This document shows positions 4,481 through 22,076 of a stretch of DNA of 33,707 bases, piece by piece. This stretch comes from Thermodesulfovibrionia bacterium (GTDB lineage: Bacteria; Nitrospirota; Thermodesulfovibrionia; UBA6902): positions 1 to 33,707 of the forward strand of contig CAMYND010000028.1 in assembly GCA_947259645.1 (NCBI GenBank), given 5' to 3'. A model generated the notes under the pieces. That model saw only the letters and a list, made by a program, of their open reading frames with translations, was not told the origin of the DNA and did no database searches. How positions within the stretch are numbered: position 1 is the stretch's first letter; each line of letters opens with the position of its first letter. The position numbers and the translations under genes were made by a program.

Positions 4481-5503
4481 TCATTTCTCTTCATAGTCAA
4501 AGCGGTCATCAAACTGTTCCATACTCTTTTTCAGAGGCTGGGTCCGCTCGAAGGTCGCAACATTGCAAATAGCGTCACCACGGTTTACGAGTGGAAGTAG
4601 TGTATGTCCTATGATAACCCCCTTCTTGTTTGCCTTTACTTCAAAATTGTCATTGCCGAGAGGATCTGAAATAACACCTAAAATATCGTTTCTTTTAATG
4701 ATACTGCCCAGTTTCTTTTTGATTATCAGGATACCGCCATGAGGCGCCCGAATCCAGGCACTTCCTTTGGCAGTAAATGACTTTACTTTTCTGTTTTTTT
4801 TGGGGCTGTTCTTTATCATTCCCAAAGCTCTCATTACCGAGAGTATGCCGGCTAGCGCGCTGCGGATTGATATCTCATTGTATCTGAGAGGTTCTCCCCC
4901 CTCAAAGACTAAAAAGGGTATTTTTTTCTCATAAGCAACTTTACGGATTGTGCCGTCAATTATATCTGCATCCAGTATGACAGGTACGTCAAATTCCCTG
5001 GCCAGTTGCCTTGTGCCTTTTACCTTGAAACATGCCCTGATCTGCGGCAGGTTTGTCCTGTGGCGGGAACCGGTATGCAAGTCTATCCCATGGGTGCATT
5101 TATCCACTATTTCCGTTACGAAGAGATGGGCCATCCTGGCTCCCAAAGAGCCCTGGGCTAACCCGGGAAAACATCTGTTCAGGTCTCTCCGGTCTGGAAG
5201 GTACCGGTCAAGGTTGTTAAACCCAAATACATTAACAATAGGAACACAAATAAGTGTCCCCTTAATATGCCGCAGTGACCTGTGTTTCAGAAGTCTCTTT
5301 ATTATCTCGACACCGTTTACCTCATCGCCATGGATCGCGGCGCTTACAAAGAGCCTCGGGCCGTCCTCTTTTCCCCGCATGACTTTTACCGGCATATTGA
5401 TCTCAGTGCAATCATAGTGCTTGCCTAAAGGTAATTCAACCTCTCTTGTTTCACCTCTGTTGATTACGGTGCTCCCGATTTGCAGCTCTCTAGTTTTTCT
5501 CAT
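4481..5503 (-). CDS. Succinylglutamate desuccinylase/aspartoacylase family zinc hydrolase
   Basis: A 340-residue protein of the AstE/AspA zinc carboxypeptidase-like family, which removes acyl groups from amino acids or trims amide bonds. Zinc ligands appear in AAIHGDEVNGVEI (His and Glu, about residues 56-68) and GIDLHTGS (His, about 139-146). The likely catalytic Glu is in VFEGGEPLR (about 199-207). The C-terminal 100 residues form a lipoyl-like beta domain (SAWIRAPHGGILI through KGVIIGHTLLPLV), as in the DUF2817-type members. It overlaps the upstream RimK-like gene by 14 bp. The pairing suggests that one enzyme adds and the other removes or processes an amino-acid modification; that is inference. 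Confidence 0.88.
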   Translation of the reverse strand: MRKTRELQIGSTVINRGETREVELPLGKHYDCTEINMPVKVMRGKEDGPRLFVSAAIHGDEVNGVEIIKRLLKHRSLRHIKGTLICVPIVNVFGFNNLDRYLPDRRDLNRCFPGLAQGSLGARMAHLFVTEIVDKCTHGIDLHTGSRHRTNLPQIRACFKVKGTRQLAREFDVPVILDADIIDGTIRKVAYEKKIPFLVFEGGEPLRYNEISIRSALAGILSVMRALGMIKNSPKKNRKVKSFTAKGSAWIRAPHGGILIIKKKLGSIIKRNDILGVISDPLGNDNFEVKANKKGVIIGHTLLPLVNRGDAICNVATFERTQPLKKSMEQFDDRFDYEEK

Positions 5504-6665
5504 TGTTCTTTGATCTTCTCCTTCTTTTCCGCGCTTTCACGACAAGGCTCTTCATGTTCTCCAGTTTCCCAAAGCAGAGGAGTGTGTCATTGACCAGTAT
5601 CTCCCGGGTGGCTTTTGGGTTTGAAATTGTCTTTCGGTCACGTTTAATGCTCAACACAATGATGTCTTTTTCTCTGAAACCGGCATTATCCACCATGCTG
5701 CCAATCAATTCAGAGTTCTTCATTATCTGGATTTCCGCAATACCATACCCTTTGTCCTGCGTCAATCGCTGCCTCAGGTCAATTTCGGGAATACTGCATT
5801 GCGCTTCAATTGATGAAACCATTGCGCCTGCCACATCGATGTCTGTTGCCGTTTCAATACCCTCGAGCCCCGGCGTTGAATTCACTTCCATGATTTTCGG
5901 GCCGCTATTGGTTTCTAACATGTCCACACCAGCAACGTTTAATCCCAATAACTGGACCGCCCGAATCGCTGTCCGTTCATACTGTTCATCCAGTTGTACC
6001 TCTTCGACCCTTCCGCCACGGTGCACATTGCTTCTGAACTCATCTCCCCGGGCAACACGGCGCATGGATGCAATGACCTGTCCCGCAACCACAATCGCCC
6101 GGATGTCCTTTCCTCTGCTCTCCTGAATAAACTTTTGGATCAGGACGTTCTGTTTTGTGCTCTGCAGGGTTTCAACAATCGCTTCCGCGACCTTGTTCGT
6201 TTCTGCAAGGATAACCCCGATACCCTGGGTCCCTTCAATCAGTTTAATCACAACAGGAGCGCCTCCAACTTTTTCAATAGCCGGAAGTATGGCCTCCCTG
6301 TTTTTCACGAAGATCGTTTGGGGGATTCCCAGGTTATGCCTCGCAAGAAGCTGTATCGAAAACAGTTTGTCTCTTGAAGTGATGATTCCCAAAGATGAAT
6401 TAAGACAGCAAACACCCATCTGTTCAAATTGCCGGACGATTGCAGTCCCAAAAAAAGTAATGGAAGCGCCGATTCTTGGAATCACAGCATCAAAGCCCGG
6501 ACATTTTTTATTTCTATAGAGAAGATCAGGATACCCTTCCTCTACATTTATTGAGAAATCCATCGAATCCAATATTTTGACTTCATGGCCACGTTCCTTG
6601 CAAGCCTCACGCAGTCTTTTTGTACTGTACAGTTTGGGGCCTCGTGAAAGTATGGCGATTTTCAC
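5490..6665 (-). CDS. RimK-like ATP-grasp ligase with C-terminal RCK_C-like domain
   Basis: A 391-residue protein. Residues 1-290 match RimK, the ATP-grasp ligase that adds glutamate to the C-terminus of ribosomal protein S6. Visible motifs are FDAVIPRIGASITFFGTAI (N-terminal domain), VVIKLIEGTQGIGVIL (ATP-grasp loop) and KIMEVNSTPGLEGIE (Mg-binding Asn/Glu). RimK normally stops near 300 residues. Here about 75 further residues (GYGIAEIQIM through LENMKSLVV) look like a TrkA-C/RCK_C ligand-binding domain, followed by a very basic tail (KARKRRRRSKNNEKN). The true substrate may therefore not be S6. First gene of a two-gene operon with the aspartoacylase. Confidence 0.87.
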   Translation of the reverse strand: MKIAILSRGPKLYSTKRLREACKERGHEVKILDSMDFSINVEEGYPDLLYRNKKCPGFDAVIPRIGASITFFGTAIVRQFEQMGVCCLNSSLGIITSRDKLFSIQLLARHNLGIPQTIFVKNREAILPAIEKVGGAPVVIKLIEGTQGIGVILAETNKVAEAIVETLQSTKQNVLIQKFIQESRGKDIRAIVVAGQVIASMRRVARGDEFRSNVHRGGRVEEVQLDEQYERTAIRAVQLLGLNVAGVDMLETNSGPKIMEVNSTPGLEGIETATDIDVAGAMVSSIEAQCSIPEIDLRQRLTQDKGYGIAEIQIMKNSELIGSMVDNAGFREKDIIVLSIKRDRKTISNPKATREILVNDTLLCFGKLENMKSLVVKARKRRRRSKNNEKN

Positions 6666-7718: not shown

Positions 7719-8489
7719 TCAGCTCCATTGCCAGCATTGAAGGTGCAAACCTTTGCCCCCCACAGCCAGCGCTCCCACATAGGCGATGCCGAGATTCAAG
7801 CCAATTAACTCCAAGTTGCCAACAGAGTACCGACGATGTTCAGTGTGACTGTCAAACTGTGGCGCCGCTGGCTCAAGTACAACATTAATATCCTTAAGAC
7901 CATTTACCAGACCCATCCCTCTTGCTTTCAGAACCGCCTCTTTTCGCGTCCAGTAGGCAAAAAAGAGACGGAACCGGTCATCTTCTGGCAATGCTCTAAG
8001 CTGTTCGCTCTCATGGGGAGAATAGAATCTTTCAGCTATCTCTTCCCATTGTAATTCCTCTCGGGGATATTCAACGTCAATCCCTATTCTTCTTTTTAAA
8101 CCAACAGCATACAACGCAAGGTCCCTGGTATGAGACAGGTTGAACGAGAGTTCGCTGTTGCTGAGAGCATTATGTAAAGAAGGTTTGCCATAAGGATTAT
8201 AGGAAAAATCAATTTTTGCCGGTCCTGTTCCTAGATAAAGGGCCAGAATATTTCTGAGAATTCCCCTCCTCGCAATAAACCGTTTCTGATCCCGCCTGAA
8301 ACGATACTTTTCAGCCCGGCTGATTTCATCAGGAGATAGAATCCCAGCGAGCACGTCAACTTGAGAATCGGGAAGGTCAAGTAATGCACGCCAGGCATGA
8401 ACCTCATCAGCTTGCAGTGACAAATCCTGAGGAGGTGCCAGCCATTCTTTCTTATGCAAGACTCCTGAATTCATGTCTTCCTCATTCAT
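7719..8489 (-). CDS. Sfp-type 4'-phosphopantetheinyl transferase
   Basis: A 256-residue enzyme that converts apo carrier proteins to holo form by moving phosphopantetheine from CoA to the carrier serine. Signatures are RRIGIDVEYP (Mg-binding Asp and Glu, about residues 131-140) and FFAYWTRKEAVLKARGMGL (the W-x-x-K-E-A motif, about 169-187). Size and motifs fit the Sfp/Gsp group that serves secondary metabolism. It is the last gene of the NRPS operon: its ATG overlaps the synthetase stop in an ATGA arrangement, so it is translationally coupled and almost certainly primes the three PCP domains upstream. Confidence 0.95.
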   Translation of the reverse strand: MNEEDMNSGVLHKKEWLAPPQDLSLQADEVHAWRALLDLPDSQVDVLAGILSPDEISRAEKYRFRRDQKRFIARRGILRNILALYLGTGPAKIDFSYNPYGKPSLHNALSNSELSFNLSHTRDLALYAVGLKRRIGIDVEYPREELQWEEIAERFYSPHESEQLRALPEDDRFRLFFAYWTRKEAVLKARGMGLVNGLKDINVVLEPAAPQFDSHTEHRRYSVGNLELIGLNLGIAYVGALAVGGKGLHLQCWQWS

Positions 8490-11400
8490 AATGCTCTGTC
8501 TGACCTTTTTTTCTGTATCTCCTTCAGATACTTACTCATCAATTTGGCCCAGATCCCCACATAAGGCTCCTTGATCATACCAAGATGATCAGCTTCCGGC
8601 ACAACATGGACCGTCACTTCCCCCTCTACCAGATCAAGCCAGTCTCGATGGCAAGACCAATCAGTTCTGTCAGAATTAAATAGAATTACTCTACCGGTAT
8701 AACCCTGATATGCATAGTTATTTGCGAGCTGGTCGGCATATAGGTTCCACACGTAGAAACTTACGAGCGGTCGTGGCACGGGGTGTCCAAAAAAGAGAAT
8801 AGTCCTGCATACAGCAATCTTGATTCTACTTATTACCCTGTCAACGGTTTTTCTTTTGATCCAACTTACTGCCGGAGGAATTTTTTTAAACATGTATGCT
8901 ATCTTCCCCGTATTTTCTAATCTATTGAGAATATCGGTATGATGGATAATTCTTGATTTAAAAGTATAGTCATTTCCCGGAGGATCATGGTTTCTGGCAG
9001 AATTCCTCAAGTATCTAAAAGACGTGTCTACAAGAAAAAGTAAGGGGACCTCATGCCCCTGCTTTTTCAACTGACGGGCCATTTCAAGCGCTATGGCGCC
9101 AAAAAAACAATATCCACCCAGCATGTAAGGGCCTTCCGGCTGTTCAGCAAGCAGCCTCTCTATGCAGTGAGTTGCTATTTCTTCAACAGTAGAGAAAACA
9201 GGAAGGAATCCATGCTCTTCCCAGCTGATTAAGATATAGGCCGGCTGGTCAGGCTCAAGATGACGCATGAAAAAAGAACCGCTTGTCCAGAATAAAGGCA
9301 TTCTTGATCCATGAGACTGAATTGGAATTACTGATGAAGAGATTTCAGGCATACCTTCTTTGAGGATAGCCCCTGCCATTTGCTCAATAGTCGGCGCTTT
9401 GAAAACAGCAATGACGGTAAGATCCTTCCCCGTTGCCTTTTTCACTTCAGCTATCAACTTTACTGTCAGCAGTGAATGCCCTCCAAGATCGAAAAAATTG
9501 TCCCTTATCCCTACCTGTTCAATTCCAAGGACTTTTTCCCAGACCCTTACTAATTGTTTCTCCAGTTCATTGCGGGGTGCCACAAATTGTTCTTCTAAAT
9601 CAGTCCGTTCCAAGCCAGGTTCGGGTAATGCCTTCCGGTCTACTTTGCCGCTGGTGGTCATGGGGAGTGAATCGAGCATAACAAAAAAGGATGGTACCAT
9701 ATAGTCAGGCAGTCTCTCCTTAAGATCACTTCTCAGTTGTTTGGTCGTGATGCCTGACATTTCGTTCGGTACGACAAAAGCGATCAGGCGCTTATCTCCA
9801 GGGTGGTCCTCCCTCGCAATAACTATCGCCTCCCCTACTCCGTCATGCTGCCCAAGCACTGCTTCGATTTCACCAGGCTCGATGCGGAATCCCCTTACCT
9901 TTAGCTGATGATCGATCCTCCCTGAAAAATCGATGTTGCCGTCGGGAAGATAACGGGCCAGATCACCGGTCCTGTATAAGCGTGCTCGGGATTTATCGCT
10001 AAAGGGGTTTGCAACAAACTTCTCGGCAGTTAACTCCGGCCGGTTGTGATAGCCGAGAGCAAGACCGTCTCCGCCTATATAAATTTCTCCGTAGACTCCG
10101 ACAGGGACAGGTCGCATATGTTTGTCGAGTAAATATACCCGTGTATTGGAAATAGGTTTTCCTATAGGTATAGATAAAACAGGCAGCTTTAAACTCCCGG
10201 ATATATCATAGCAACAGGTAAAGGTTGTACTCTCTGTAGGACCATAACCATTCACAAGGTAAACGTGAGGCAATATTTCCATTGCTTTTTGAATATGTGT
10301 AGCAGACAATGATTCACCACCGGTAATTAGTTGTTTCACTGGTGCCAGTATCTTCGGTGCTTCGTCTATGATTGTATTAAAATATGATGAGGTCAGCCAG
10401 AGTGTGCTTATAGAATGCTGCTTAATTATATCTCCGAGCAGGGCAACAGAAGGATAACGCTCAGTATACACAACGCATAGAGCACCATGCAGCAATGCTC
10501 CCCAGAGTTCGAAAGTAGAAGCGTCAAATGATATGGGAGCAAGAAGAAGAAAACGCTGCCCTGCATCGAACCGTAGATAATCCTGTCCAGTAACAAGACG
10601 CGTTATTCCACGGTGCGGGACCTCCACCCCCTTGGGCTTTCCTGTAGACCCTGATGTATACATAACATAAGCGAGGTCATCAGGTACTACATTACTTTTA
10701 ATGTTCTCGGTACTTTGTTCTGACATTATTTCCCAGTCATCGTCAAGACAAATAATACGAGTTCGGTTTTCAGGAAGGCTGTTTAGAACACTCTTCTGTG
10801 TAAGGAGCATAGGTGTCCGGCAATCTTCCATCATAAAAAACAGTCTCTCCGCAGGGTAGGACGGGTCAAGTGGAACATAGGCCGCACCTGTCTTTAGAAT
10901 GCCGAGTATGCCAACCACCATTTCAATGGACCGTTCCATACAGATGCTCACCATCGTCCCTGAACGGACGCCAAGTACCATCAAATAATGGGCAACCTGA
11001 TTGGCCCGACGGTTAAGTTCTCCATAGCTAAGATTCCGATTACCACAGATTAAAGCCACAGCATCTGGGGTACGTTCAACCTGTTCTTCAAAAAGCTGGT
11101 GAACAGATTTATCGGCAGGGTAATCTTTCCCTGTATCATTCCATTCAACGAGCAATTGATGCTGCTCAAGCTCAGTCAGCATCGGCAGCTCCGACAGTGT
11201 GCGTTCAGGGTCGGAAACAATGCCCTCAAGCATTACCCTGTAATGCTGCGACAGTCTTTCAATGGTGGCAGGTTCAAACAGGTCGGTGTTGTATACAAAT
11301 AATACCTGTACCCCATCTTCAAGCTCGTCCAGGTACACCTCAAGGTCAAACTTTACCCTTGTATATTCTATATCTATATGTTCAAGTGTTAAACCAGACA

Positions 11401-14400
11401 GCTCCGGCGTTGAATAGGGCACATTTTGCAGAGCAAAAGTTACCTGAAACAGAGGAGTCCGGCTCAAGTCACGCTCCGGCTTTATTGCCTCCACCAGTTT
11501 CTCAAAAGGTAAATCCTGATGTTCATAGGCACCAAGGAGCTTCTTTTTTACTTTTTGGAGCAGCTCCCGGAAAACAGGATTACCCGAAGTGTCAGTCCGC
11601 ATCACAAGGGTGTTTACAAACAAGCCTATCAGTCCCTCTAATTCAACATAGTTACGGTTAGAGATGGGAGAGCCGACGACAATATCATCCTGTCCGGTGT
11701 ACCGGTGAAGCAGGCACTGGAATGCTGCAAGTAATGTCATGAAGAGAGTCACTCCCTCATTTCTGCTTAGTCCCTTAAGCGACTCAACTAACTCTCCTGA
11801 CAGCTTAAACTGATGACTTCCTCCACGAAATGTCTGTACTTTAGGGCGGGGATGGTCTACTGGAAGCTCAAGTGTATTCATTCCCTTGAGTTCCTCCATC
11901 CAGTAAGTGAGTTGTTTCTCAAGAGTCTCACCGCTCATCCATTCCCTCTGCCACACCGAAAAGTCTGCATACTGAACCGGGAGTTCCTTTAGTGGTGAAA
12001 GACCGCCTTTTAAGAAAGAGTTATATAACATTGATATTTCCCGGAAAAGAATTCCCGCTGACCAACGGTCAAATATTATATGGTGTATTTTCAACAACAG
12101 GACATGCTCTTCCTTACCCTCCTTTACAAGTACGGCTTTCAGCAAAGGGCCGGATGAAAGATCAAAAGACTCTTCGCTTACAGCCCGCATTACCTCACGT
12201 TCTTTCTGCTTCCCCGCTTCTGTGCCAAGATCTATTTGCTGCAAAGTGAAAGTTGCCTCAGATACAATCTTTTGAATGGTTTGCTCATCCTGGACAGAAA
12301 ATGTTGTACGCAGTATTTCGTGACGATTTATTAATTCTTTAAAGCTCTGTTCAAGGGCTTCCTGATTCAACTCGCCAGTCAGCCTCATGGCAAGCATTTC
12401 ATCATAGGGAGAACTATCGGCCTCCATCTGATCAAGAAACCATAAACGCTGCTGGGAAAAAGAGAGGGGCAGGTCACTATCTCTGGAAACTGCCTTAATA
12501 CAGGAGCCTGTGAATCCGGAATCATCCACCCTTACTGATTCTATATACTCGGAAAGAGATCGAATAGTTGGCTTCTCAAATATAACCATCAAGGGCATTT
12601 GCACCTGAAATACACTGTTAATTCTTGAAACAAGCTGTGTAGCCATCAGGGAATGTCCTCCCAGGTGAAAAAAGTTTTCTGTAACCCCGATCTGTTTCCG
12701 GTGCAGCAAGTCCTGCCATATATGCTGCAAAGCTGTTTCTACGGAATTTTTAGGCTCCACGCGTGCGGTATTATCAGCTGCCTGCTCCTTTGAATAAAGG
12801 GACAGCTTCTGTCTGTCTACCTTCCCGTTGGGACTGAGGGGCAGTGAATCAAGAACAATAAAACTGGAAGGAATCATATATTCAGGCAGACTCTTTGAGA
12901 GTGATTCCTGCAGTGTACCCGTATTTATTGTTTGTCCCTGATTGGGCACAATAAAAGCAGTAAGTCCCTCTACAAAACCTGTCTGCTCTGTCGCTGAACT
13001 GTTTTCTACCTCTGCAATCTGCCCTGCTCTGTCATCCCCCTGAGCAAATATGTTATTGGCCATACCTTCTACATTTTGACCTTCTGGACTACTACTATTT
13101 AGCATGAGCCGGTCTGGTGCGCCAGTTACGAGGACTTCGACCTGCCGAACTTCAGGGTATGTCAAAAGTGTGTTTTGTATTTCACCGGTCTCAATACGGT
13201 ATCCCCTCACTTTTACCTGCTCATCATTACGTCCCAGAAATTCCAGATTCCCGTCATCCAGAAAACATACTATATCGCCGGTTTTATAGAGAACACCTTC
13301 TCCGTTTTTGTTGAAAGGATTCGGGATAAAGCGCTCCGCGGTCAGATCCGGCCGATTCAGGTACCCTAGAGAAATACCGGAACCACCAAGGTACAGCTCG
13401 CCGGGAATCCCCGGTGGAACCTGTCGGAGGTCCCCGTCCAGGACATAGACCTGTGTGTTCTCAATTGGCCGTCCAATTGGCACTGTAACAGTTGAATACT
13501 GTCGGCTGCAATCAAAGACAGTACTCCAGACGGTCGCTTCAGTAGGACCATACTCATTGAACAGTTGAGCTTCAGGGAGTGTATCTCGATGACATGCCAC
13601 CAGATCAGGCGTACATGCCTCACCAGCAACAACAACGGTCTGCAATGAGACAAGCATCTTCGCATGATACTGGAGCAATTGATCGTAAAGGGATGGTATG
13701 CTCAGCAGGTGCGTAATAAAATTTTCTGCAATCATGCCTGCAATATGATTAACGTCCCGAAATTGCTTCCTGTCAGGGATGAAAAGGCAGCCGCCTCTGC
13801 ACAGGGTGCCATATATTCCGGCAACCGAGCTGTCAAAGGAGATGCTCGACAGGAGCATGAAACGTTCAGGAACATTTCCATAATAACCGATTCTGGCTCC
13901 AGTAGAGTGTGCAAGATTCCCATGGCTGATCATGACGCCTTTTGGATTACCCGTTGATCCCGATGTGTAAATGATATATGCGATGCCATCAGGATTGGCA
14001 CTTTCTTCAGGGTTTGAGTCACTTAATTGACTGATCCCGTGTTTGTCATCATCTATAACGATCACCTTTAATTGAGCAGTCTGCAACTCCTGCTCAAGCT
14101 CATGATGGGTGAGAACTGTTTGAATATCAGCATCATCAATCATGTAGGCAATACGCTCCATGGGATATGACGGATCAAGAGGAACATATGCAGCTCCTGA
14201 TTTCAGTACTGCCAGTATGGCTGTTATCATCTCTATGGAGCGATCTATGTATATGCCTACTATGGTCCCCGGCCCTGCCTCGTTATCGGACAGATAGTTG
14301 GCCAGCTGATTTGCCCGGCGATTGAGTTCATCATAACTGAGACGCTCGTTCCCGTAAACAACGGCACCTTTTTCGGGTTCTTGCAAAGCCTGTTCTTCAA

Positions 14401-15793
14401 TCAGCTTGAGAACAGGCTTTGCCGGCAGGTTCTTCCCTGTGGTGCCACACCACTCAATTACAAGCTTCTGTTCCATTTCAGTTAATATGGGCAGGTCTCT
14501 AATCAATTGATCAGGCCTGGCAGCAAAAGATTGTAATAGTATCTCGACATGATTCAGCAGACGTGAGATACTTCCCTCATCAAAAAGGCTGCGATCATAA
14601 ACAGCTACAAGACGTAAACGCGGACCTGGCAGCGCCAGCAGAACCAGAGGATAGTTGCTTTGATCCCTGTAACTCACATCACTTATTTCAATTTCCGAGG
14701 GGAGACTTTCTGCTGCATTATCTACAGGCATGTTTTCAAAAACAAAAAGAGACTGGAATAACGGTACTCCAAGCGGAAGTTCGCTCCATTCATGGACTTT
14801 CAAAAGAGGAGTGTATTCAAACTCTCGTGCTTCAATCTGCTTCCCTTGCAGTTTCACAAGCCAGTTGGACAGTGAGTCTGTCGGCTCGACCGTCACCCTG
14901 ACCGGCAGGGTATTGATGAAAAGACCGACCATTCCCTCGACTCCTTCTAAAGATGCCGGCCGCCCTGATACTGTAGTACCGAACAGAATATCTTCTTCAC
15001 CCGTATACCTGTGGAGCAAAAGAGCCCATGCTCCCTGGATCATAGTATTAAGCGTCAATCGCTGTTTTTGGGCGGAACTTCTCAGTCCGGCCGTGGCCTG
15101 GCTGGAAAGTACCAGCTCTTTATGACTCTGTCCTTTGTCATCTCTCTGAAGTCGTTGGGTTACAAGAGGGGTTGGAGAAGAAATATTCTTTAGTTGTTCT
15201 TTCCAGAAATGTTCAGCCTCTGACAAGTCCTGCTTCTGAAGCCACGCAATATAATCACGAAATGGATTAGCAGCATGATCTTTGAGGTTTTCTCCCCGGC
15301 AGAGTGCATGGTAAAGTTCCCACACCTCCCGGAGAACGACTGTGGTAGACCAGCCGTCGCATAACATGTGGTGAAGGCTCCACACCCACTGATATGTATG
15401 TTCTTTGATTCGGAACAGCCTGAAGCGCATAAGAGGCGCCCTGTCCGGATCAAATCCGCATACCCGGTCATCATGCAGAAAGGTTTCCAGCCATTCAGCA
15501 AATTCACTATCTGATCTTTTCTCCAGTTGCTCTGTCTTCCAGTCGAGATCGACTTCACGGCGTACAACCTGTAGGGGTTCATCCAGTTCTTCCCAGAAAA
15601 AGGCTGTTCGTAATGACTGATGCCGCTGGACAACTGACTCCCATGAGCGCTGAAAGAGTTCAAGATCTAAGTTACCTGACAACCTGCATGTATACTGCGT
15701 GACATAAATCCCGGTTCCCGGCTCCTTGAGAGTGTGGAAAAGCATGCCTTCCTGAAGAGGTGACAGCGGATATATATCTTCTACATTTTCCAT
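8486..15793 (-). CDS. NRPS, modules 2 and 3: C-A-PCP-C-A-PCP-TE
   Basis: A 2435-residue dimodular synthetase. Module 2: C domain about 1-440 with intact HHMLCDG (141-147), A domain about 460-1000 and PCP serine near 1048 (HLGGHS). Module 3: C domain about 1110-1545 with HHIIFDR at 1237-1243 (consensus Gly replaced by Arg), A domain about 1565-2060, PCP serine near 2107, then a thioesterase about 2155-2435. My reading of the A-pocket gives DSALVAEVWK for module 2 (no confident amino acid) and DAFWIGGTFK for module 3 (the classical valine code). The module 2 A domain carries an extra low-complexity stretch, about residues 893-943, between motifs A8 and A9. The TE has Cys2229 where Ser is usual (GGYCFFGA), with Asp2256 and His2403 as likely partners. 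The first C domain begins VEDIYPLSPLQEGM, as expected after an epimerising module. The ATG lacks a Shine-Dalgarno and follows the upstream synthetase by 37 bp. Confidence 0.96.
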   Translation of the reverse strand: MENVEDIYPLSPLQEGMLFHTLKEPGTGIYVTQYTCRLSGNLDLELFQRSWESVVQRHQSLRTAFFWEELDEPLQVVRREVDLDWKTEQLEKRSDSEFAEWLETFLHDDRVCGFDPDRAPLMRFRLFRIKEHTYQWVWSLHHMLCDGWSTTVVLREVWELYHALCRGENLKDHAANPFRDYIAWLQKQDLSEAEHFWKEQLKNISSPTPLVTQRLQRDDKGQSHKELVLSSQATAGLRSSAQKQRLTLNTMIQGAWALLLHRYTGEEDILFGTTVSGRPASLEGVEGMVGLFINTLPVRVTVEPTDSLSNWLVKLQGKQIEAREFEYTPLLKVHEWSELPLGVPLFQSLFVFENMPVDNAAESLPSEIEISDVSYRDQSNYPLVLLALPGPRLRLVAVYDRSLFDEGSISRLLNHVEILLQSFAARPDQLIRDLPILTEMEQKLVIEWCGTTGKNLPAKPVLKLIEEQALQEPEKGAVVYGNERLSYDELNRRANQLANYLSDNEAGPGTIVGIYIDRSIEMITAILAVLKSGAAYVPLDPSYPMERIAYMIDDADIQTVLTHHELEQELQTAQLKVIVIDDDKHGISQLSDSNPEESANPDGIAYIIYTSGSTGNPKGVMISHGNLAHSTGARIGYYGNVPERFMLLSSISFDSSVAGIYGTLCRGGCLFIPDRKQFRDVNHIAGMIAENFITHLLSIPSLYDQLLQYHAKMLVSLQTVVVAGEACTPDLVACHRDTLPEAQLFNEYGPTEATVWSTVFDCSRQYSTVTVPIGRPIENTQVYVLDGDLRQVPPGIPGELYLGGSGISLGYLNRPDLTAERFIPNPFNKNGEGVLYKTGDIVCFLDDGNLEFLGRNDEQVKVRGYRIETGEIQNTLLTYPEVRQVEVLVTGAPDRLMLNSSSPEGQNVEGMANNIFAQGDDRAGQIAEVENSSATEQTGFVEGLTAFIVPNQGQTINTGTLQESLSKSLPEYMIPSSFIVLDSLPLSPNGKVDRQKLSLYSKEQAADNTARVEPKNSVETALQHIWQDLLHRKQIGVTENFFHLGGHSLMATQLVSRINSVFQVQMPLMVIFEKPTIRSLSEYIESVRVDDSGFTGSCIKAVSRDSDLPLSFSQQRLWFLDQMEADSSPYDEMLAMRLTGELNQEALEQSFKELINRHEILRTTFSVQDEQTIQKIVSEATFTLQQIDLGTEAGKQKEREVMRAVSEESFDLSSGPLLKAVLVKEGKEEHVLLLKIHHIIFDRWSAGILFREISMLYNSFLKGGLSPLKELPVQYADFSVWQREWMSGETLEKQLTYWMEELKGMNTLELPVDHPRPKVQTFRGGSHQFKLSGELVESLKGLSRNEGVTLFMTLLAAFQCLLHRYTGQDDIVVGSPISNRNYVELEGLIGLFVNTLVMRTDTSGNPVFRELLQKVKKKLLGAYEHQDLPFEKLVEAIKPERDLSRTPLFQVTFALQNVPYSTPELSGLTLEHIDIEYTRVKFDLEVYLDELEDGVQVLFVYNTDLFEPATIERLSQHYRVMLEGIVSDPERTLSELPMLTELEQHQLLVEWNDTGKDYPADKSVHQLFEEQVERTPDAVALICGNRNLSYGELNRRANQVAHYLMVLGVRSGTMVSICMERSIEMVVGILGILKTGAAYVPLDPSYPAERLFFMMEDCRTPMLLTQKSVLNSLPENRTRIICLDDDWEIMSEQSTENIKSNVVPDDLAYVMYTSGSTGKPKGVEVPHRGITRLVTGQDYLRFDAGQRFLLLAPISFDASTFELWGALLHGALCVVYTERYPSVALLGDIIKQHSISTLWLTSSYFNTIIDEAPKILAPVKQLITGGESLSATHIQKAMEILPHVYLVNGYGPTESTTFTCCYDISGSLKLPVLSIPIGKPISNTRVYLLDKHMRPVPVGVYGEIYIGGDGLALGYHNRPELTAEKFVANPFSDKSRARLYRTGDLARYLPDGNIDFSGRIDHQLKVRGFRIEPGEIEAVLGQHDGVGEAIVIAREDHPGDKRLIAFVVPNEMSGITTKQLRSDLKERLPDYMVPSFFVMLDSLPMTTSGKVDRKALPEPGLERTDLEEQFVAPRNELEKQLVRVWEKVLGIEQVGIRDNFFDLGGHSLLTVKLIAEVKKATGKDLTVIAVFKAPTIEQMAGAILKEGMPEISSSVIPIQSHGSRMPLFWTSGSFFMRHLEPDQPAYILISWEEHGFLPVFSTVEEIATHCIERLLAEQPEGPYMLGGYCFFGAIALEMARQLKKQGHEVPLLFLVDTSFRYLRNSARNHDPPGNDYTFKSRIIHHTDILNRLENTGKIAYMFKKIPPAVSWIKRKTVDRVISRIKIAVCRTILFFGHPVPRPLVSFYVWNLYADQLANNYAYQGYTGRVILFNSDRTDWSCHRDWLDLVEGEVTVHVVPEADHLGMIKEPYVGIWAKLMSKYLKEIQKKRSDRAL

Positions 15794-15830
15794 ATAATAT
15801 CAATCAGTTTATTTTTAATAATTATTAAAT

Positions 15831-18800
15831 CTATTCATAAGCTTTATCGGACTTATCCAGTAACCGGGACAATTTTGCCAGCTTTTCAGCATTAAGATTA
15901 GCCAGCGGAAAATCTGACGCACTCGGTTCATCACCTGACGGTTTCATGCAATGGTTTATCAGCCCTTGAAGTGACTGAAGAAATTTACGGGATATCCCCT
16001 GTATGGTTTCAGGCCTGTGTCGATCTGTGCTGAATGTCCAGTACGCTTCCAACTGATCATGAATTACGCAGGAGTTTATTTCTATCAGATGCGGCCGCTG
16101 CCCTTTTAGACCGCGGACTCCCTGCAGAAAACCATTTAATCGAATTCTGGATGATTGCCCGCTTAACTCGTGCAGCGTTCCCAGGTAGTTAAATATTACC
16201 TCAGCATCAGGCACCTGCTTCATTGCATCCCTTATGGTCCTGTTCTTACTGAGATAACGCAAAGGACTATATCCAAAACCCCTATTGGGAATGGCCCGTA
16301 TCTGTTCTTTAACCGACCTTATGATCTGTCCGGGCCCATGTTCATCCGGGAGGACAAGGCTTAGTGGATACAGGGAGGTGAACCACCCCAGGGTGTGATA
16401 TAGGCTAACTTCTTTAATAACACCCTCTCTGCCGTGTCCTTCTTTATCCACCCTTAATACAGAACTGCCGCTCCAGTTGCACAGCGTTTGCATGAGAGCT
16501 GCCAGCAGCATCTCATCAACGCTAATCCGGCTGGAGAGGTTGACTTTATGAAGGAGATCATGGGTAGCCTGAGGTTCTAATTTAACAGTAATAGTCTGGG
16601 CCGAAGACTCCAGGCCATTTCCTGGATGATCAATATCCCGGGGAAGAGATGCGGTCGGCGGCCTGACCTGACCTATCCAGTAATCAGCTTCCGATTCACA
16701 GGCCTGAGAATTAGCATACTGGACAAATTTTTCCGCCCATTCATTGAAAGGTGTTGTTTTACGTGAAAGCAGCGGAGTTTTTCCTTCGGTAAGATCGCGG
16801 CAAATGGTCTCCAGATCCTCCAGAATAATATACCATGATATGCCATCCACAACTAAATGATGAATGATAATCCCAAGCTGACATGGCTGGTCCCCGCCCC
16901 GGTCAAAGTACAGTGCCCGTATAAGAGGACCCTTTTGAAGGTCCAGCGATAAATGCGCCTGTTGCATGGAGCGGTCTATAGATGTTGCTTGTTCAGGCTC
17001 CGTCTGATCTGACAGATTGTAATATTCCAGGGCAAATGAATTGTCAGCATTACTAACGGCCTGTTCCCAGCCTGAGGCCTTCCTCTGGAAACGAAGGCGC
17101 AGGGAATCATGGTGAAGTATCAGATGCTTAAATGCCTGCTCCAGGATAGCTGGGGTTATTTCCCTGCTTAGATCCAGATTCTGCGCCATATTCCAGATGT
17201 GCGGCTCCGGTAAATCAAAATCAAAGAACCACTGCTGTATGGGTGTAAGCGGTACTGATCCCTTTCCCGGCCGCTGTTCATGGCCGGCTTCGATATTCGC
17301 AATCAATTCAGCAATCGTCTGATGCTGCAAAAGCAGACCGGGCGTAAATTCCAGCCCTGCATTTACTGACCGGGCAGCAATCTGAATGCTCATGATCGAA
17401 TCTCCGCCCAAATCAAAAAAATTATCATGTATACCGACCTGATTAAGTCCAATAACGTCCGCCCAGATTCGGGCCAGAATTTTTTCATTATTTGTACGTG
17501 GTTCCTCATAAGCGTTATCGAGATCCGGCCTTGCCGAATCTGGTTCAGGAAGTGCTTTTCGATCAATCTTTCCATTGGGTGATAAGGGCAGTTCATCCAG
17601 CATCACAAATACCGACGGTATCATATAATCAGCCAGCTTCTTCTTCAACTCTTTACGTAATTCATCTATTGATGGGGCTTCTGTTTGCGTAACGAGATAT
17701 GCAACAAGATGTTTATCTCCTGAATTATCTTCTCGAGCTACAACCACACATTGTTTCACCCCTGGTTCATCTCCAAGTACGGCTTCAATCTCTCCAAGTT
17801 CAATACGTATACCGTGGATTTTTACCTGAAAGTCGTTGCGACCCAGATATTCGATATTTCCATCGGGCAAATAACGGCAGAGATCACCAGTTTTGTAAAG
17901 TCGTGCTCCCTGCCTGTCAGAAAAGGGATCAGGAATAAATCTCTCTTTGGTCAGTTCCTGCCTGTTAATATAACCAAGAGCCACCTGTACACCGCCGATA
18001 TGCAGTTCACCGGGCACTCCGACCGGAACAGGATGCATATGATGGTCCAGAATAAACATCCGGGTGTTGGCGACAGGTCTGCCAATTGGGACTATCTTAA
18101 GGTCACTCCCTGACTGACATTTCCAATAGGTTACATCTACGGCTGCTTCTGTAGGTCCATATAAATTGTGCAGCTCTGCTTTCATTTTAGAGAAGAACTG
18201 TTCCTGTAACGCATAAGGCAGGGCCTCACCGCTGCAAATTACACGTTTCAATGAGTCACAGCTGCCAGCTCCCCGGTCCTCAAGAAAATAATGAAGCATG
18301 GACGGCACGAAATGAAGAGTAGTAACTCCCTGTTCACAAATCACGTTAACAAGATAATCAGTGTCCCGGTGGCCCCCCGGACGGGCAACTACTAATCGTG
18401 CCCCGGTCAGCAGGGGCCAGAAAAACTCCCATACCGAGACATCAAAACTGAAAGGTGTTTTCTGCAGAACAACATCTTCAGAAGTCAGACTATATTCATC
18501 CTGCATCCACAACAGACGATTGCAGATTCCACGATGGCTGTTCATTACACCCTTTGGCCTGCCTGTGGAGCCTGAAGTGAAAATGACATATGCCATATTT
18601 TCAGGGGTTGTAATACACTCAGGATTATTATCTATGTTTATAGTGTTGTCACCCGGTTGAATCAAAGAGCACGAGTCAGAAAGAAGCTCATCAAGACAGA
18701 GCACCTGCAGGTTGTCCTGTGGAATAGTTCTGATCAACTTTCTTTGGACCAGAACGACAGAGACCTTTGAATCCTCCAGCATATAATCAAGCAGATCTTT

Positions 18801-20426
18801 GGGATAGTTCGGATCAAGTGGGACATAGGCCCCGCCGGCCTTGAGTATGGCGTACAGTCCAATGACCATCTCTATGGAACGGTCTGCGCAGATTCCAACC
18901 GGTACATCAGGCCCTGTCCCCAGTGTACGAAGATAATGTGCGAGTCTGTTTGCCTGAACGTTCATTTCCCTGTAAGTCAGACTCTCACCTTCAAATATTA
19001 ACGCAACCTCATCGGGTGTACGTTCTACCTGGGCTTCAAAGAGCTGATGAAGGCATACGTCTTCAGGATAATCTACCCTTGTATCATTCCATGTATCAAA
19101 CTGACGCGTCTCATTATCTGTTAATAGCGTCAATGCCGAAATCATCTGATCAGGATCGGCCAGCAGCATGTCAAGGAGGTGGAAAAAGTGTCCAACGGCT
19201 TTCCCGCGAAGATCCTGATCAAAGACCTCGCAGTTGAAATCAAAGTGAAATTGAAAACTGCCGGACGAATCGAAATCATGTACCTGGAGCTGCAGGGCAT
19301 GCCCCATATCTGTATGCCCGGGATGAAGCCATGTAGACTGCATCGGCATACCGCAAAAATCCGGAAATGCAACATTGATATAGTTAAGAACCACTGAATA
19401 GGACTTGTGGGTCACGGCATTGCTGCAGCCCGGATGTGCGTAGCGAAAAAAATCATAGGTTTCTGAAGTAATGGATTTAACCAAACTGCGAAAAGTCTCC
19501 CCAGGCTCAATGTTGATTCCCAGCGGAAACATTTCAATGAACAGCCCGACAGTTTCCTGAAAAGTTGCAGTTGGACGGTTGTGGGAAGGTGTGCCTATAA
19601 CTAATTCTGAATTGCCGCTTATACGATACAGGTACGCAAATAGCAAGGCTGAAAGGATATTAAAAAGCGAAAGGTGCGGGCTAAAAGAACGAAAATCTTT
19701 TTCTGTTGCCAATCCGCGCAGTTTCTCCGATCGTTCCCGGCCAAGATCGTAATATACCCTTTCAGTGAGTGTTGAATGAGCTGACGGAGTGTTGCCATAC
19801 AATTCAAGAGGTGCTGGAGCAGAACCATTCCTCCCCTGCCAGTAGGCTAGAGCTTTTCTGTGCTCAGTTGATTCCTGAAATTTGACCTCATAGTTCTGGT
19901 ACTCAAGATATGATGGTAACTCAGGAGCATCTGCCAGACGGCCATTAAGCGCTAATTGATAGAACTCGGCCATTCGTCTGTAAATGACAGCGCAGGACCA
20001 CCCATCAGTAATCAATTGGTGCTGATTGATATACCAGACATATTCACCTTCTCTAAGCTTGATTAGCACACTGTCAAACAACCGCTCTTTAAGATCAAAG
20101 TTCAGGATAGAACGCGACTTCAACCAGGATTTAATGTTACCATGATGAGCAGAATCCTTTGAGAAGTCTATGAACTCCAAATCAAATGTTAATGTTTCCC
20201 TGAAATTTTGCAGGGGAACATCATCCTTGTCATTAATGACAGTTCGAAGGGAATCGCTCCTGTCAATGAGAGTTTGAAAGGCGTCACGGAATGCTTCCGG
20301 CTCTATATTGCCCTGGATAAAAAAGGCGAGGGCCATATTATAAAGCGGTAGATGAGGATTAAGCTTCTGTCCGGTCCAGATGTGAAATTGACTGTTTGTG
20401 AGATTAGATAATTTAAGTTTGTTCAA
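15831..20426 (-). CDS. NRPS, module 1: C-A-PCP-E
   Basis: A 1531-residue monomodular synthetase, first gene of the operon. Domains: C about 1-435, A about 455-965, PCP with serine 1010 (FFDLGGDS), and an epimerisation domain about 1055-1490. The E domain shows PLTPIQQWFF, HHLVVDG (1189-1195), TLGWFTSLYPL and the diagnostic FNYLG. The A-pocket reads DVWHISLVDK, one change from the EntF serine code, so it should load L-Ser and pass on D-Ser. The starting C domain has HQLITDG at 136-142, with Gln137 in place of the second, catalytic His. Being a starter C domain, it might acylate the serine or be inactive. The only in-frame start is a TTG at 20426, since an in-frame stop lies just upstream. The short helical C-terminus (EKLAKLSRLLDK) could dock the next synthetase. 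Confidence 0.95.
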   Translation of the reverse strand: MNKLKLSNLTNSQFHIWTGQKLNPHLPLYNMALAFFIQGNIEPEAFRDAFQTLIDRSDSLRTVINDKDDVPLQNFRETLTFDLEFIDFSKDSAHHGNIKSWLKSRSILNFDLKERLFDSVLIKLREGEYVWYINQHQLITDGWSCAVIYRRMAEFYQLALNGRLADAPELPSYLEYQNYEVKFQESTEHRKALAYWQGRNGSAPAPLELYGNTPSAHSTLTERVYYDLGRERSEKLRGLATEKDFRSFSPHLSLFNILSALLFAYLYRISGNSELVIGTPSHNRPTATFQETVGLFIEMFPLGINIEPGETFRSLVKSITSETYDFFRYAHPGCSNAVTHKSYSVVLNYINVAFPDFCGMPMQSTWLHPGHTDMGHALQLQVHDFDSSGSFQFHFDFNCEVFDQDLRGKAVGHFFHLLDMLLADPDQMISALTLLTDNETRQFDTWNDTRVDYPEDVCLHQLFEAQVERTPDEVALIFEGESLTYREMNVQANRLAHYLRTLGTGPDVPVGICADRSIEMVIGLYAILKAGGAYVPLDPNYPKDLLDYMLEDSKVSVVLVQRKLIRTIPQDNLQVLCLDELLSDSCSLIQPGDNTINIDNNPECITTPENMAYVIFTSGSTGRPKGVMNSHRGICNRLLWMQDEYSLTSEDVVLQKTPFSFDVSVWEFFWPLLTGARLVVARPGGHRDTDYLVNVICEQGVTTLHFVPSMLHYFLEDRGAGSCDSLKRVICSGEALPYALQEQFFSKMKAELHNLYGPTEAAVDVTYWKCQSGSDLKIVPIGRPVANTRMFILDHHMHPVPVGVPGELHIGGVQVALGYINRQELTKERFIPDPFSDRQGARLYKTGDLCRYLPDGNIEYLGRNDFQVKIHGIRIELGEIEAVLGDEPGVKQCVVVAREDNSGDKHLVAYLVTQTEAPSIDELRKELKKKLADYMIPSVFVMLDELPLSPNGKIDRKALPEPDSARPDLDNAYEEPRTNNEKILARIWADVIGLNQVGIHDNFFDLGGDSIMSIQIAARSVNAGLEFTPGLLLQHQTIAELIANIEAGHEQRPGKGSVPLTPIQQWFFDFDLPEPHIWNMAQNLDLSREITPAILEQAFKHLILHHDSLRLRFQRKASGWEQAVSNADNSFALEYYNLSDQTEPEQATSIDRSMQQAHLSLDLQKGPLIRALYFDRGGDQPCQLGIIIHHLVVDGISWYIILEDLETICRDLTEGKTPLLSRKTTPFNEWAEKFVQYANSQACESEADYWIGQVRPPTASLPRDIDHPGNGLESSAQTITVKLEPQATHDLLHKVNLSSRISVDEMLLAALMQTLCNWSGSSVLRVDKEGHGREGVIKEVSLYHTLGWFTSLYPLSLVLPDEHGPGQIIRSVKEQIRAIPNRGFGYSPLRYLSKNRTIRDAMKQVPDAEVIFNYLGTLHELSGQSSRIRLNGFLQGVRGLKGQRPHLIEINSCVIHDQLEAYWTFSTDRHRPETIQGISRKFLQSLQGLINHCMKPSGDEPSASDFPLANLNAEKLAKLSRLLDKSDKAYE

Positions 20427-20772
20427 TATATTGACCCATATTCATCATGTGATTATTACGTTTAGCCTATAAAAATTGACGGTAATGTTTTCAGTACTTT
20501 TGCAAAGGGTTCGTCTAAAAATGCCCTTTTCACAAACCAAACCGCTGCCACATTAATGATGACAACAAGCCTCTTCTCCCAAAATTAATTGATTTAGTAA
20601 TTTATAAACTAATAAGAAATCGTCTTGAAATCGTTATATATATTTTAGCGCATAATCGGGCTGTATGCAATTTTTGGTAGTGTCCTAATTTGAAATAGTT
20701 AGCTTAGCAAAATCCCGAACCTCCAGGTGCCATAGTTTCTGGGGGGCGGTCACTTACTGGAAAACTCTAACT

Positions 20773-20900: not shown

Positions 20901-22076
20901 ATGAAATACTGCAATCATTCTCGTTTCACCAAATGTTTATTCCTGTTTAGTTTTTTATTAGTAGTTATCTCCGTATTTACGGCCAAACCGGTTAATGCCC
21001 ATAAATTAGGGGAAAGTTATATCTATCTTAGAGTATACGAAGATAAGCTAACCGGTACTTTTCACATAACGCTTCGTGATGTAAACAATGCGCTCGGGCT
21101 TCAAGCGTCCGATGTTCAGATCACAGAGGATAATTGGGCGGATCGAATAGGTGAAGTTCACAGCCTATATAAGGAGAAGGTTCAATTCTTTGTTGGCGAT
21201 AACGAGTTACCCATTCGTTTCACTGGCTCAGATAGGTTGTTGGGGAAAGATCGTTGGTTATTCATGAAATTTGTCATCATTGAAGACTCTAACACGCCAG
21301 ATGTCATAGAAATTGATTATAAAGTACTGTTCGACAGAGACCCAGACCATGTAGCCCTTGTGGCGATCGAACATTTCTGGGAGGCAAGTATCTTTGATAA
21401 CAAAGGTCAAATATCCCTAATTTTCAGTCCTGACAATCATCGTCAACAACTCTCTTTTTCCGGTCACTCTGTATTTCAAGGTTTTATGGGCATTGTCAAA
21501 TTAGGAATTAAACATATATGGAATGGTACCGATCACGTCCTCTTCATAATTGCACTTATATTGCCAGCAGCAATGCTCAGAAAAAAAACCGATTGGCAGC
21601 CAGTGAGAGAATTTCGGCCAGCAATTTTATACGTGATAAAAATCATTACCTTGTTCACTATTGCACATAGTGTAACACTGAGTGTCGCCGCATTAGGTCT
21701 TTTCAGGTTACCATCCCGCATCGTTGAATCAGTAATTGCCATTTCTATTGCTGTTGCTGCATTGGACATCATTTTTCCAATTTTTAAGCGTAAAATCGGT
21801 TGGGTTGTATTTATTTTCGGCCTATTCCATGGCTTTGGTTTCGCAAGTGTACTAAAACGTCTTGGGGTGCTAGGTGAACATGCGGCACTATCGCTTTTTG
21901 GGTTTAACCTGGGTGTGGAAATCGGACAGGTAGTGATTATATGTATAATATTTCCAGTTATTTACCTGATTCGACATAGCGCTTTTTATCCAAAAATCAT
22001 CATGCGTTATGGTGCAGCAGCTATGATTATGCTAGCTATTTATTGGTTTGTAGATCGCGCATTTCTTGCACGTTGA
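20901..22076 (+). CDS. HupE/UreJ family membrane protein with exported N-terminal domain
   Basis: A 391-residue protein. An N-terminal signal segment (LFLFSFLLVVISVFTAKPVNA, about residues 13-33) is followed by a roughly 160-residue periplasmic domain. The C-terminal half has about seven membrane helices typical of the HupE/UreJ_2 family: GIKHIWNGTDHVLFIIALILP (about 203-223), FTIAHSVTLSVAALGL (about 252-267) and VFIFGLFHGFGFASVLKRLG (about 303-322). His-rich intramembrane motifs in this family are linked to nickel or cobalt uptake for hydrogenase or urease, but this long form occurs without either. AAGGGG lies 7 nt before the ATG. No hydrogenase or urease gene is nearby. Confidence 0.88.
   Translation: MKYCNHSRFTKCLFLFSFLLVVISVFTAKPVNAHKLGESYIYLRVYEDKLTGTFHITLRDVNNALGLQASDVQITEDNWADRIGEVHSLYKEKVQFFVGDNELPIRFTGSDRLLGKDRWLFMKFVIIEDSNTPDVIEIDYKVLFDRDPDHVALVAIEHFWEASIFDNKGQISLIFSPDNHRQQLSFSGHSVFQGFMGIVKLGIKHIWNGTDHVLFIIALILPAAMLRKKTDWQPVREFRPAILYVIKIITLFTIAHSVTLSVAALGLFRLPSRIVESVIAISIAVAALDIIFPIFKRKIGWVVFIFGLFHGFGFASVLKRLGVLGEHAALSLFGFNLGVEIGQVVIICIIFPVIYLIRHSAFYPKIIMRYGAAAMIMLAIYWFVDRAFLAR

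Follow-up and report, generated by a model that had tools for sequence, protein, structure and literature searches.

Within-gene recombination, adenylation (A) domains included, is a recognised natural process in the genes of nonribosomal peptide synthetases (NRPSs), as described in two accounts (PMC8097286, PMC7486941). The closest described proteins for two further elements treated here are a starter condensation (C) domain and a metal-binding permease. In the starter C domain RzmA-Cs the second His of the HHxxxDG motif positions donor and acceptor, and its replacement by Val leaves product traces only (PMC7804268), whereas Gln at the same position is active in streptothricin ORF18, with the motif HQxxxDM (PMC11546977). 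In the 'anglerases' the Ang-1 domain binds Cu2+ and Ni2+ and holds copper via His1, with Kd values of 74 nM for Cu2+ and 220 nM for Ni2+ in RbAng-1a (PMC12537917).

Here we describe an NRPS operon of a Thermodesulfovibrionia bacterium (Nitrospirota) at positions 7719-20426 of a stretch of 33,707 nucleotides, called the window below, which is one whole contig (CAMYND010000028.1) of a 3.41 Mb genome that is 99.6% complete. As an enzyme system the trimodular NRPS is of a known kind; what sets it apart is a probable domain swap, together with an apparent loss of embedded domains and a link to a HupE/UreJ-2 gene. Compared with the cluster of a congener (Nitrospirae bacterium Glo_13, metagenome-assembled genome PIVU01000013.1), the operon probably makes the core peptide D-Ser–L-His–L-Val and has probably acquired its Ser A domain by a natural swap. 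This degree of confidence applies to the peptide core and to the history of the swap; function is excluded from it.

Modules and predicted peptide

The operon consists of three minus-strand open reading frames (ORFs), all intact across 12.7 kb. These and their domains, including peptidyl carrier proteins (PCPs), an epimerization (E) domain and a thioesterase (TE), are listed below.

15831-20426, minus strand: NRPS subunit 1, 1531 amino acids (aa), TTG start, C(starter-like)-A(Ser)-PCP-E
19107-20408, minus strand: C0, starter-type C domain; best PDB relatives RzmA-Cs 7c1k/7c1p/7c1h; 65% to the congener
20016-20018, minus strand: CAA (Gln) where the congener and Roseovarius have the second His of HHxxxDG; motif HQLITDG
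17502-19151, minus strand: probable swapped-in A domain, Ser code DVWHISLVDK; 82% aa and 81% DNA identity to C73:13101-14714, flanks about 23%
17292-17495, minus strand: PCP 1, LGGDS, E-associated type
15882-17279, minus strand: E domain with core motifs; PCP-E 68% to the congener
8486-15793, minus strand: NRPS subunit 2, 2435 aa, C-A(His)-PCP-C-A(Val)-PCP-TE
14474-15790, minus strand: C1, D-donor (DCL) type
12779-14431, minus strand: A domain, code DSALVAEVWK, read as His
12899-13138, minus strand: linker or scar in the A8-A9 region of the His A domain, where the congener has a methyltransferase
12539-12751, minus strand: PCP 2
11150-12481, minus strand: C2, motif HHIIFDR, between two L-residue modules
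9614-11122, minus strand: A domain, Val code DAFWIGGTFK
9359-9571, minus strand: PCP 3
8519-9316, minus strand: TE, Cys nucleophile, GYCFFG; Cys codon 9107-9109
7719-8489, minus strand: 4'-phosphopantetheinyl transferase (PPTase), HetI/Sfp type, 256 aa

A previous reading made from the letters alone (the sequence-only reading) had proposed C-A-PCP-E and C-A-PCP-C-A-PCP-TE subunits with their own PPTase. Gene calls and Pfam agreed with this layout, giving C-A-PCP-C(E) on 15831-20426, C-A-PCP-C-A-PCP-TE on 8486-15793 and 4'-phosphopantetheinyl transferase on 7719-8489, the last ORF overlapping that of subunit 2 by 4 nt at 8486-8489. The E-values of the four C-family domains (1e-68 to 1e-121) exclude chance, and the NRPS shows all that defines the canonical modular type: A, PCP and C domains bearing the core motifs, A-domain specificity codes, and a domain for release. 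No MbtH gene, reported earlier as missing beside the operon, was present anywhere in the 3.41 Mb genome. The TTG start of subunit 1 lies shortly after an in-frame stop (20427-20460) and overlaps a short out-of-frame ATG frame (ATGATGAATATGGG...TAA), for which translational coupling or a lost upstream start are possible explanations.

Alignment by PheA landmarks returned the pocket codes already read, DVWHISLVDK, DSALVAEVWK and DAFWIGGTFK. The first and third are standard readings for Ser and Val, and both assignments stood under this landmark alignment. The Ser code belongs to the family DVWHxSLVDK (PMC12283262). The middle code, previously left unassigned, is one residue away from DSALIAEVWK (Ile to Val at PheA position 299, a conservative change), which has been assigned to His and also to beta-OH-His (PMC12283262). 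Since the exact code DSALIAEVWK is found in the orthologous module of the congener and in the closest plasmid-borne relatives of the His A domain (Trichormus, Nostoc, Methylocystis), the middle residue is predicted to be His.

The last C-family domain of subunit 1 carries the four E motifs HHLVVDG, EGHGRE, GWFTSLYPL and FNYLG, in line with the D-Ser proposed earlier. C1 scored 400-238 bits with the C domains of McyB, PvdL, SrfA-C, BacC and TycB and at most 140 bits with all others compared, so that these five lead the remainder by more than 95 bits; C1 is therefore of the D-accepting (DCL) type, as expected after an E domain and as previously supposed. Ser would thus be loaded, epimerised by E, handed to C1 and joined to His and then to Val, before the finished peptide is released by a TE with a Cys nucleophile. 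The three-module reading is retained in this form, although it had overlooked the starter type of C0, the swapped Ser A domain, the methyltransferase scar and the TE Cys. That the product is likely undescribed, as it held, is plausible: a search outside antiSMASH and MIBiG turned up no known cluster of this architecture.

The nucleophile elbow of the TE (GYCFFG) has relatives of the GYC kind in sister genera. A recurrent terminal cassette, A-PCP-TE with a GYC elbow followed by a PPTase, was observed in several genera of the family, with A codes that differ (L061 5256-8668; L062 7496-14205; L063 4344-9172; window 7719-11122), and PPTase relatives come after terminal module-TE genes in genomes G014, G015 and G032.

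Probable exchange of the Ser adenylation domain

In C0 and in PCP-E, subunit 1 is 65% and 68% identical, respectively, to its congener counterpart, but identity falls to 35% in the A domain. On the other hand, the A domain is 82% identical (aa) to that of a hybrid polyketide synthase (PKS)-NRPS on contig C73 of the same genome, with about 23% identity outside it. At the DNA level, the 81% identity to C73 starts at nt 1276 of the gene and stops at nt 2889, and similarity to the congener ends at nt 1281 and resumes at nt 2986, placing the breakpoints in the C-A linker (aa ~421-436) and in the A-PCP linker (aa ~960-995). The Ser A domain of C73 is also found in a related PKS-NRPS from a different family (G040; identities of 62% for A and 48% for C) and is hence native to this type, which makes the C73 type the likely donor and the window gene the recipient. 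The synonymous divergence (dS) between the swapped A domain and the C73 copy was 0.82, compared with 0.74-0.92 between the two species in subunit 1. Since these values, which are near saturation, are alike, the swap appears to be about as old as the species split.

The PKS-NRPS occupies C73:1-19246 and carries Ser and DILQLGMIWK codes; its second C domain is split over two overlapping frames near 16271-16290, reflecting a frameshift or an assembly error. On a further contig of the source genome (C47:25000-40310) lies one more assembly line, a Val NRPS accompanied by FkbH-like and dehydrogenase-like genes.

The congener cluster is otherwise orthologous, with identities of 65% for the starter C domain, 68% for PCP-E, 65% for C1 and 66% for the His A domain, and an adjacent HupE/UreJ-2 gene (60%). 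Its first A domain has the Asn code DLTKIGEVGK, in contrast to Ser in the window, and holds an insert of ~330 aa from the N-acetyl-sugar-amidotransferase family (TIGR03573; at E=1.4e-39 the match stays below the family cut-off). This WbuX-like insert matches PDB 8wex and contains SGGKDS and two CxxC motifs; no homologue was found in the source genome at E <= 1e-10. The congener His A domain contains an embedded methyltransferase (PF13649, 3e-5), whereas the window has a linker of only ~80 aa at this site, with a nonsynonymous divergence (dN) of 0.53 versus 0.20 for the A core.

A prolyl ligase and a prolyl-PCP dehydrogenase are the usual genes for a pyrrole-2-carboxyl starter. Relatives of both lie upstream in the congener: a nearly full-length match to PDB 6o6e (L-proline--[L-prolyl-carrier protein] ligase, 3e-91), and a dehydrogenase for which the PigA and RedW models (3e-135 and 1e-114) were best, though below their cut-offs. 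Neither was found in the source genome, which yielded only NRPS A domains and unrelated ligases and, as best dehydrogenase match, a housekeeping acyl-CoA dehydrogenase beside etfAB- and fabH-like genes. A PCP-TE fragment of the congener genome (G001 C356:2-955, 60% to the window TE) may join the end of its contig C641, which is unproven because a 64% TE relative occurs in another genus. Long NRPSs from other members of the phylum aligning at 40% had no readable His code, looked like separate long assembly lines and were set aside.

A plasmid of Roseovarius pelagicus (NZ_CP106737.1) encodes a related NRPS, C-A(Asn, DLTKVGEVGK)-[amidotransferase]-PCP-C-A(His, DSALIAEVWK)-PCP-TE, with an amidotransferase domain 54% identical to that of the congener. 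A near-identical locus lies on a Pseudohalocynthiibacter plasmid (NZ_CP049039.1), and both plasmids carry PCP, prolyl-dehydrogenase-like, methyltransferase and adenylation genes as well as a divergent HupE/UreJ-2 gene. The window keeps the His module and the adjacent HupE/UreJ-2 of this pyrrolyl-Asn-His type and is without the Asn amidotransferase, the prolyl ligase and the dehydrogenase. A logic of pyrrole–Asn(amidotransferase)–His plus HupE thus seems to be common to two phyla, the window being a putative derived relative that retained His and HupE.

In the history we propose, an ancestor of the congener/Roseovarius kind would have made a pyrrole-2-carboxyl (from Pro)–Asn(amidotransferase)–His product. 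Its Asn A domain with the embedded amidotransferase would then have been replaced by a Ser A domain of the C73 PKS-NRPS type, the methyltransferase lost from the His module and the pyrrole-starter genes discarded, while C0 would have shifted from HH to HQ, leaving N-acylation weak, altered or absent.

Amidotransferase-like (PP-loop, WbuX) domains were observed within NRPSs at L021:5460-6524 (minus strand; contig C641 of the congener), L073 11418-19466 and L075 12068-16118. In Nitrospirota and Rhodobacterales they lie inside Asn A domains; in Streptomyces sp. NBC_01216 such a domain forms a fusion with a C/E-like domain, next to an A-PCP gene. No description of amidotransferase-interrupted A domains was found in the literature searched (open-access text only). 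The architecture of these relatives suggests an NRPS route to amidines.

The N-terminus, the HupE/UreJ-2 neighbour and the role of the product

Three RzmA-Cs sequences (7c1k, 7c1p, 7c1h) head the list of solved relatives of C0, with E about 1e-27, and judged by these top matches C0 is probably a starter-type (lipoinitiating) C domain. The intact HHxxxDG motif present in the congener and in Roseovarius is HQLITDG in the window, and the N-terminus of the peptide is uncertain because of this altered catalytic residue. Against the congener, C0 showed dN 0.21 and dS 0.92 (E domain 0.18/0.74), i.e. a dN/dS of about 0.23, like that of E. The peptide may or may not be acylated at its N-terminus: Gln is active in ORF18 and C0 is under normal purifying selection, while the RzmA-Cs mutant gave traces only. 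A search across the order found this type of C0 in two genomes only, those of the window and the congener; its rarity rests mainly on this search, a separate contig scan with two peptide patterns having returned the congener alone.

Divergent from the NRPS genes lies one further gene:

20901-22076, plus strand: HupE/UreJ-2 permease with N-terminal anglerase-like domain (PF13795, 3.2e-44); His34 comes directly after the predicted signal peptide (VNA|H)

The statement that no exporter adjoins the operon had left out this permease-type gene, which is linked to this type of NRPS in two phyla and flanks the NRPSs of the window, the congener and Roseovarius alike. The window protein is 60% identical to that of the congener and 35% to that of Roseovarius. 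In all three proteins a His directly follows the predicted signal peptide, as seen in an alignment with the cleavage site judged by eye; a His in this place is the distinguishing mark of anglerases. The window protein, being too far removed in sequence, had no phmmer match to 9GCE, and its AlphaFold model, built from two sequences only, had a pLDDT of 38, too low for reading a beta-sandwich fold in the N-terminal domain. A multicopper oxidase gene (24678-26792, plus strand; CopA-like, TIGR01480 446 bits, just below cut-off) lies 2.6 kb from the HupE gene and may or may not be related to it and the NRPS.

The His A domain relatives of Trichormus and Methylocystis adjoin TonB-dependent siderophore receptors. 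Because of this siderophore context, the His module and the anglerase-like HupE, we tentatively propose a small metallophore as the most likely function: the product would bind Cu(II)/Ni(II) and act together with the anglerase-type permease next door. More speculatively, the window may descend, by A-domain swap and starter-gene loss, from an undescribed family of small metallophores that comprises pyrrole-2-carboxyl–Asn(amidine)–His and its derivatives. These would be made with an N-acetyl-sugar-amidotransferase-like domain inside the Asn A domain and received as an N4-site Cu(II)/Ni(II) complex by the neighbouring anglerase-HupE/UreJ-2. If so, the metal would sit in a square-planar N4 site made up of the pyrrole N, two amide N and the imidazole of His, as in amino-terminal Cu(II)- and Ni(II)-binding (ATCUN) peptides. 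Nothing relevant on pyrrole/amidine/His metallophores or on chalkophore/ATCUN NRPSs was found in the open-access literature.

An alternative with nearly an even chance is that HupE/UreJ-2 and the NRPS are linked by shared locus ancestry, and that the peptide itself serves a different purpose, as a signal, a protease inhibitor or an antibiotic. Linkage in two Nitrospirota genomes could be plain inheritance, and no other metal-uptake gene adjoins, the copper-oxidase-like gene being possibly unrelated. However, the NRPS logic and the HupE adjacency recur in Rhodobacterales, where, in a tblastn search of plasmids with the window HupE, the Roseovarius and Pseudohalocynthiibacter NRPS plasmids took the top two places among 126 records, and full-length HupE relatives were confined to 2 of the 47 genomes of the order, both of which carry this NRPS.

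Less probable, and in our view unlikely, is a lipopeptide synthetase in which an active C0, with Gln for His, puts a fatty acyl-CoA on Ser to yield N-acyl-D-Ser–His–Val, HupE being a mere neighbour. The RzmA relatives, the purifying selection on C0 and the activity of an HQ motif in ORF18 are consistent with this; the RzmA-Cs mutant, the second His kept in both homologues, and the lack of a dedicated acyl ligase near the NRPS genes argue against it, as do the donor genes of the homologues, which indicate a pyrrole rather than a fatty acid starter. That the cluster is decaying, with C0 dead, tailoring domains lost and little or no functional product, is improbable: the HQ motif, the TTG start, the methyltransferase scar with its raised dN and the missing starter genes and amidotransferase would fit, but the ORFs are intact, dN/dS versus the congener is 0.14-0.28 in C0, PCP, E, C1 and the A_His core, and the E motifs, the serines of the PCPs, the Cys of the TE and the PPTase are present.

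Several points weigh against the history and the metallophore function proposed above. Roseovarius C0 is only 28% identical and no E domain could be assigned in its NRPS; the congener contig ends inside the His module, before a third module, and no PPTase homologue was found in the congener genome. The order of losses is a parsimony argument on two congeners and a distant outgroup. The ordinary selection on C0 fits a simple relic poorly, in addition to which the streptothricin ORF18 motif illustrates that Gln at this site can be functional. Finally, as a ligand for Cu/Ni, H-Ser-His-Val or acyl-Ser-His-Val would be inferior to the proposed pyrrolyl-X-His parent, and no TonB receptor or metal regulator was found in the window.

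Among the other window genes, one that joins a RimK-type ATP-grasp ligase and a TrkA-C domain (5490-6665, minus strand) is followed by an AstE/AspA-type deacylase (4481-5503, minus strand), forming a ligase/hydrolase pair. A 171-aa protein (29521-30036, minus strand) matches only the C-terminal part of GrdB (211-345 of 347); the N-terminal part of this selenoprotein is not present there, and the upstream frame is closed by stops.

Comparison with known systems

The Roseovarius and Pseudohalocynthiibacter NRPSs resemble the window in the starter-type C domain, His as second A domain residue, a TE with Cys and the divergent HupE/UreJ-2 neighbour. They differ in having two modules only, Asn with an amidotransferase, pyrrole-starter genes and an alphaproteobacterial host, and their second C domain is without significant similarity to C1. 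Acyl-D-Asn prodrug-type initiation (colibactin, xenocoumacin, zwittermicin) uses a C-A(Asn)-PCP-E first module, which the congener (Asn) would fit and the window (Ser) does not; no periplasmic D-Asn-specific maturation peptidase was found among the window ORFs, to which the scan was confined.

The RzmA starter C domains are the best solved relatives of C0, yet distant in sequence; wild-type RzmA keeps the second His and has acetyl-CoA as native donor, whereas C0 has Gln. The Ang-1/HupE-UreJ-2 anglerases (PMC12537917, PDB 9GCE) share with the window protein the PF13795 permease, a secreted N-terminal domain and His as first mature residue, and no link to an NRPS was seen in the available part of that source. 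Through HupE, a His-containing NRPS is here tied to a newly described class of Cu/Ni-binding proteins, which makes the metallophore idea directly testable.

As in the recorded cases of NRPS recombination, within-gene exchange would here drive a new peptide (PMC8097286, PMC7486941). In the window it is the A domain that appears to have been exchanged, its C and PCP neighbours being kept. Here the swap would also have removed an embedded amidotransferase, and the predicted residue differs between two congeneric species, Asn in the congener and Ser in the window. The site of A-domain exchange is debated by NRPS engineers, and the two natural versions found here can be compared. They point to an apparently natural exchange of a whole A domain inside a single genus, in which the breakpoints can be read, an embedded domain would have been lost and the predicted residue has changed.

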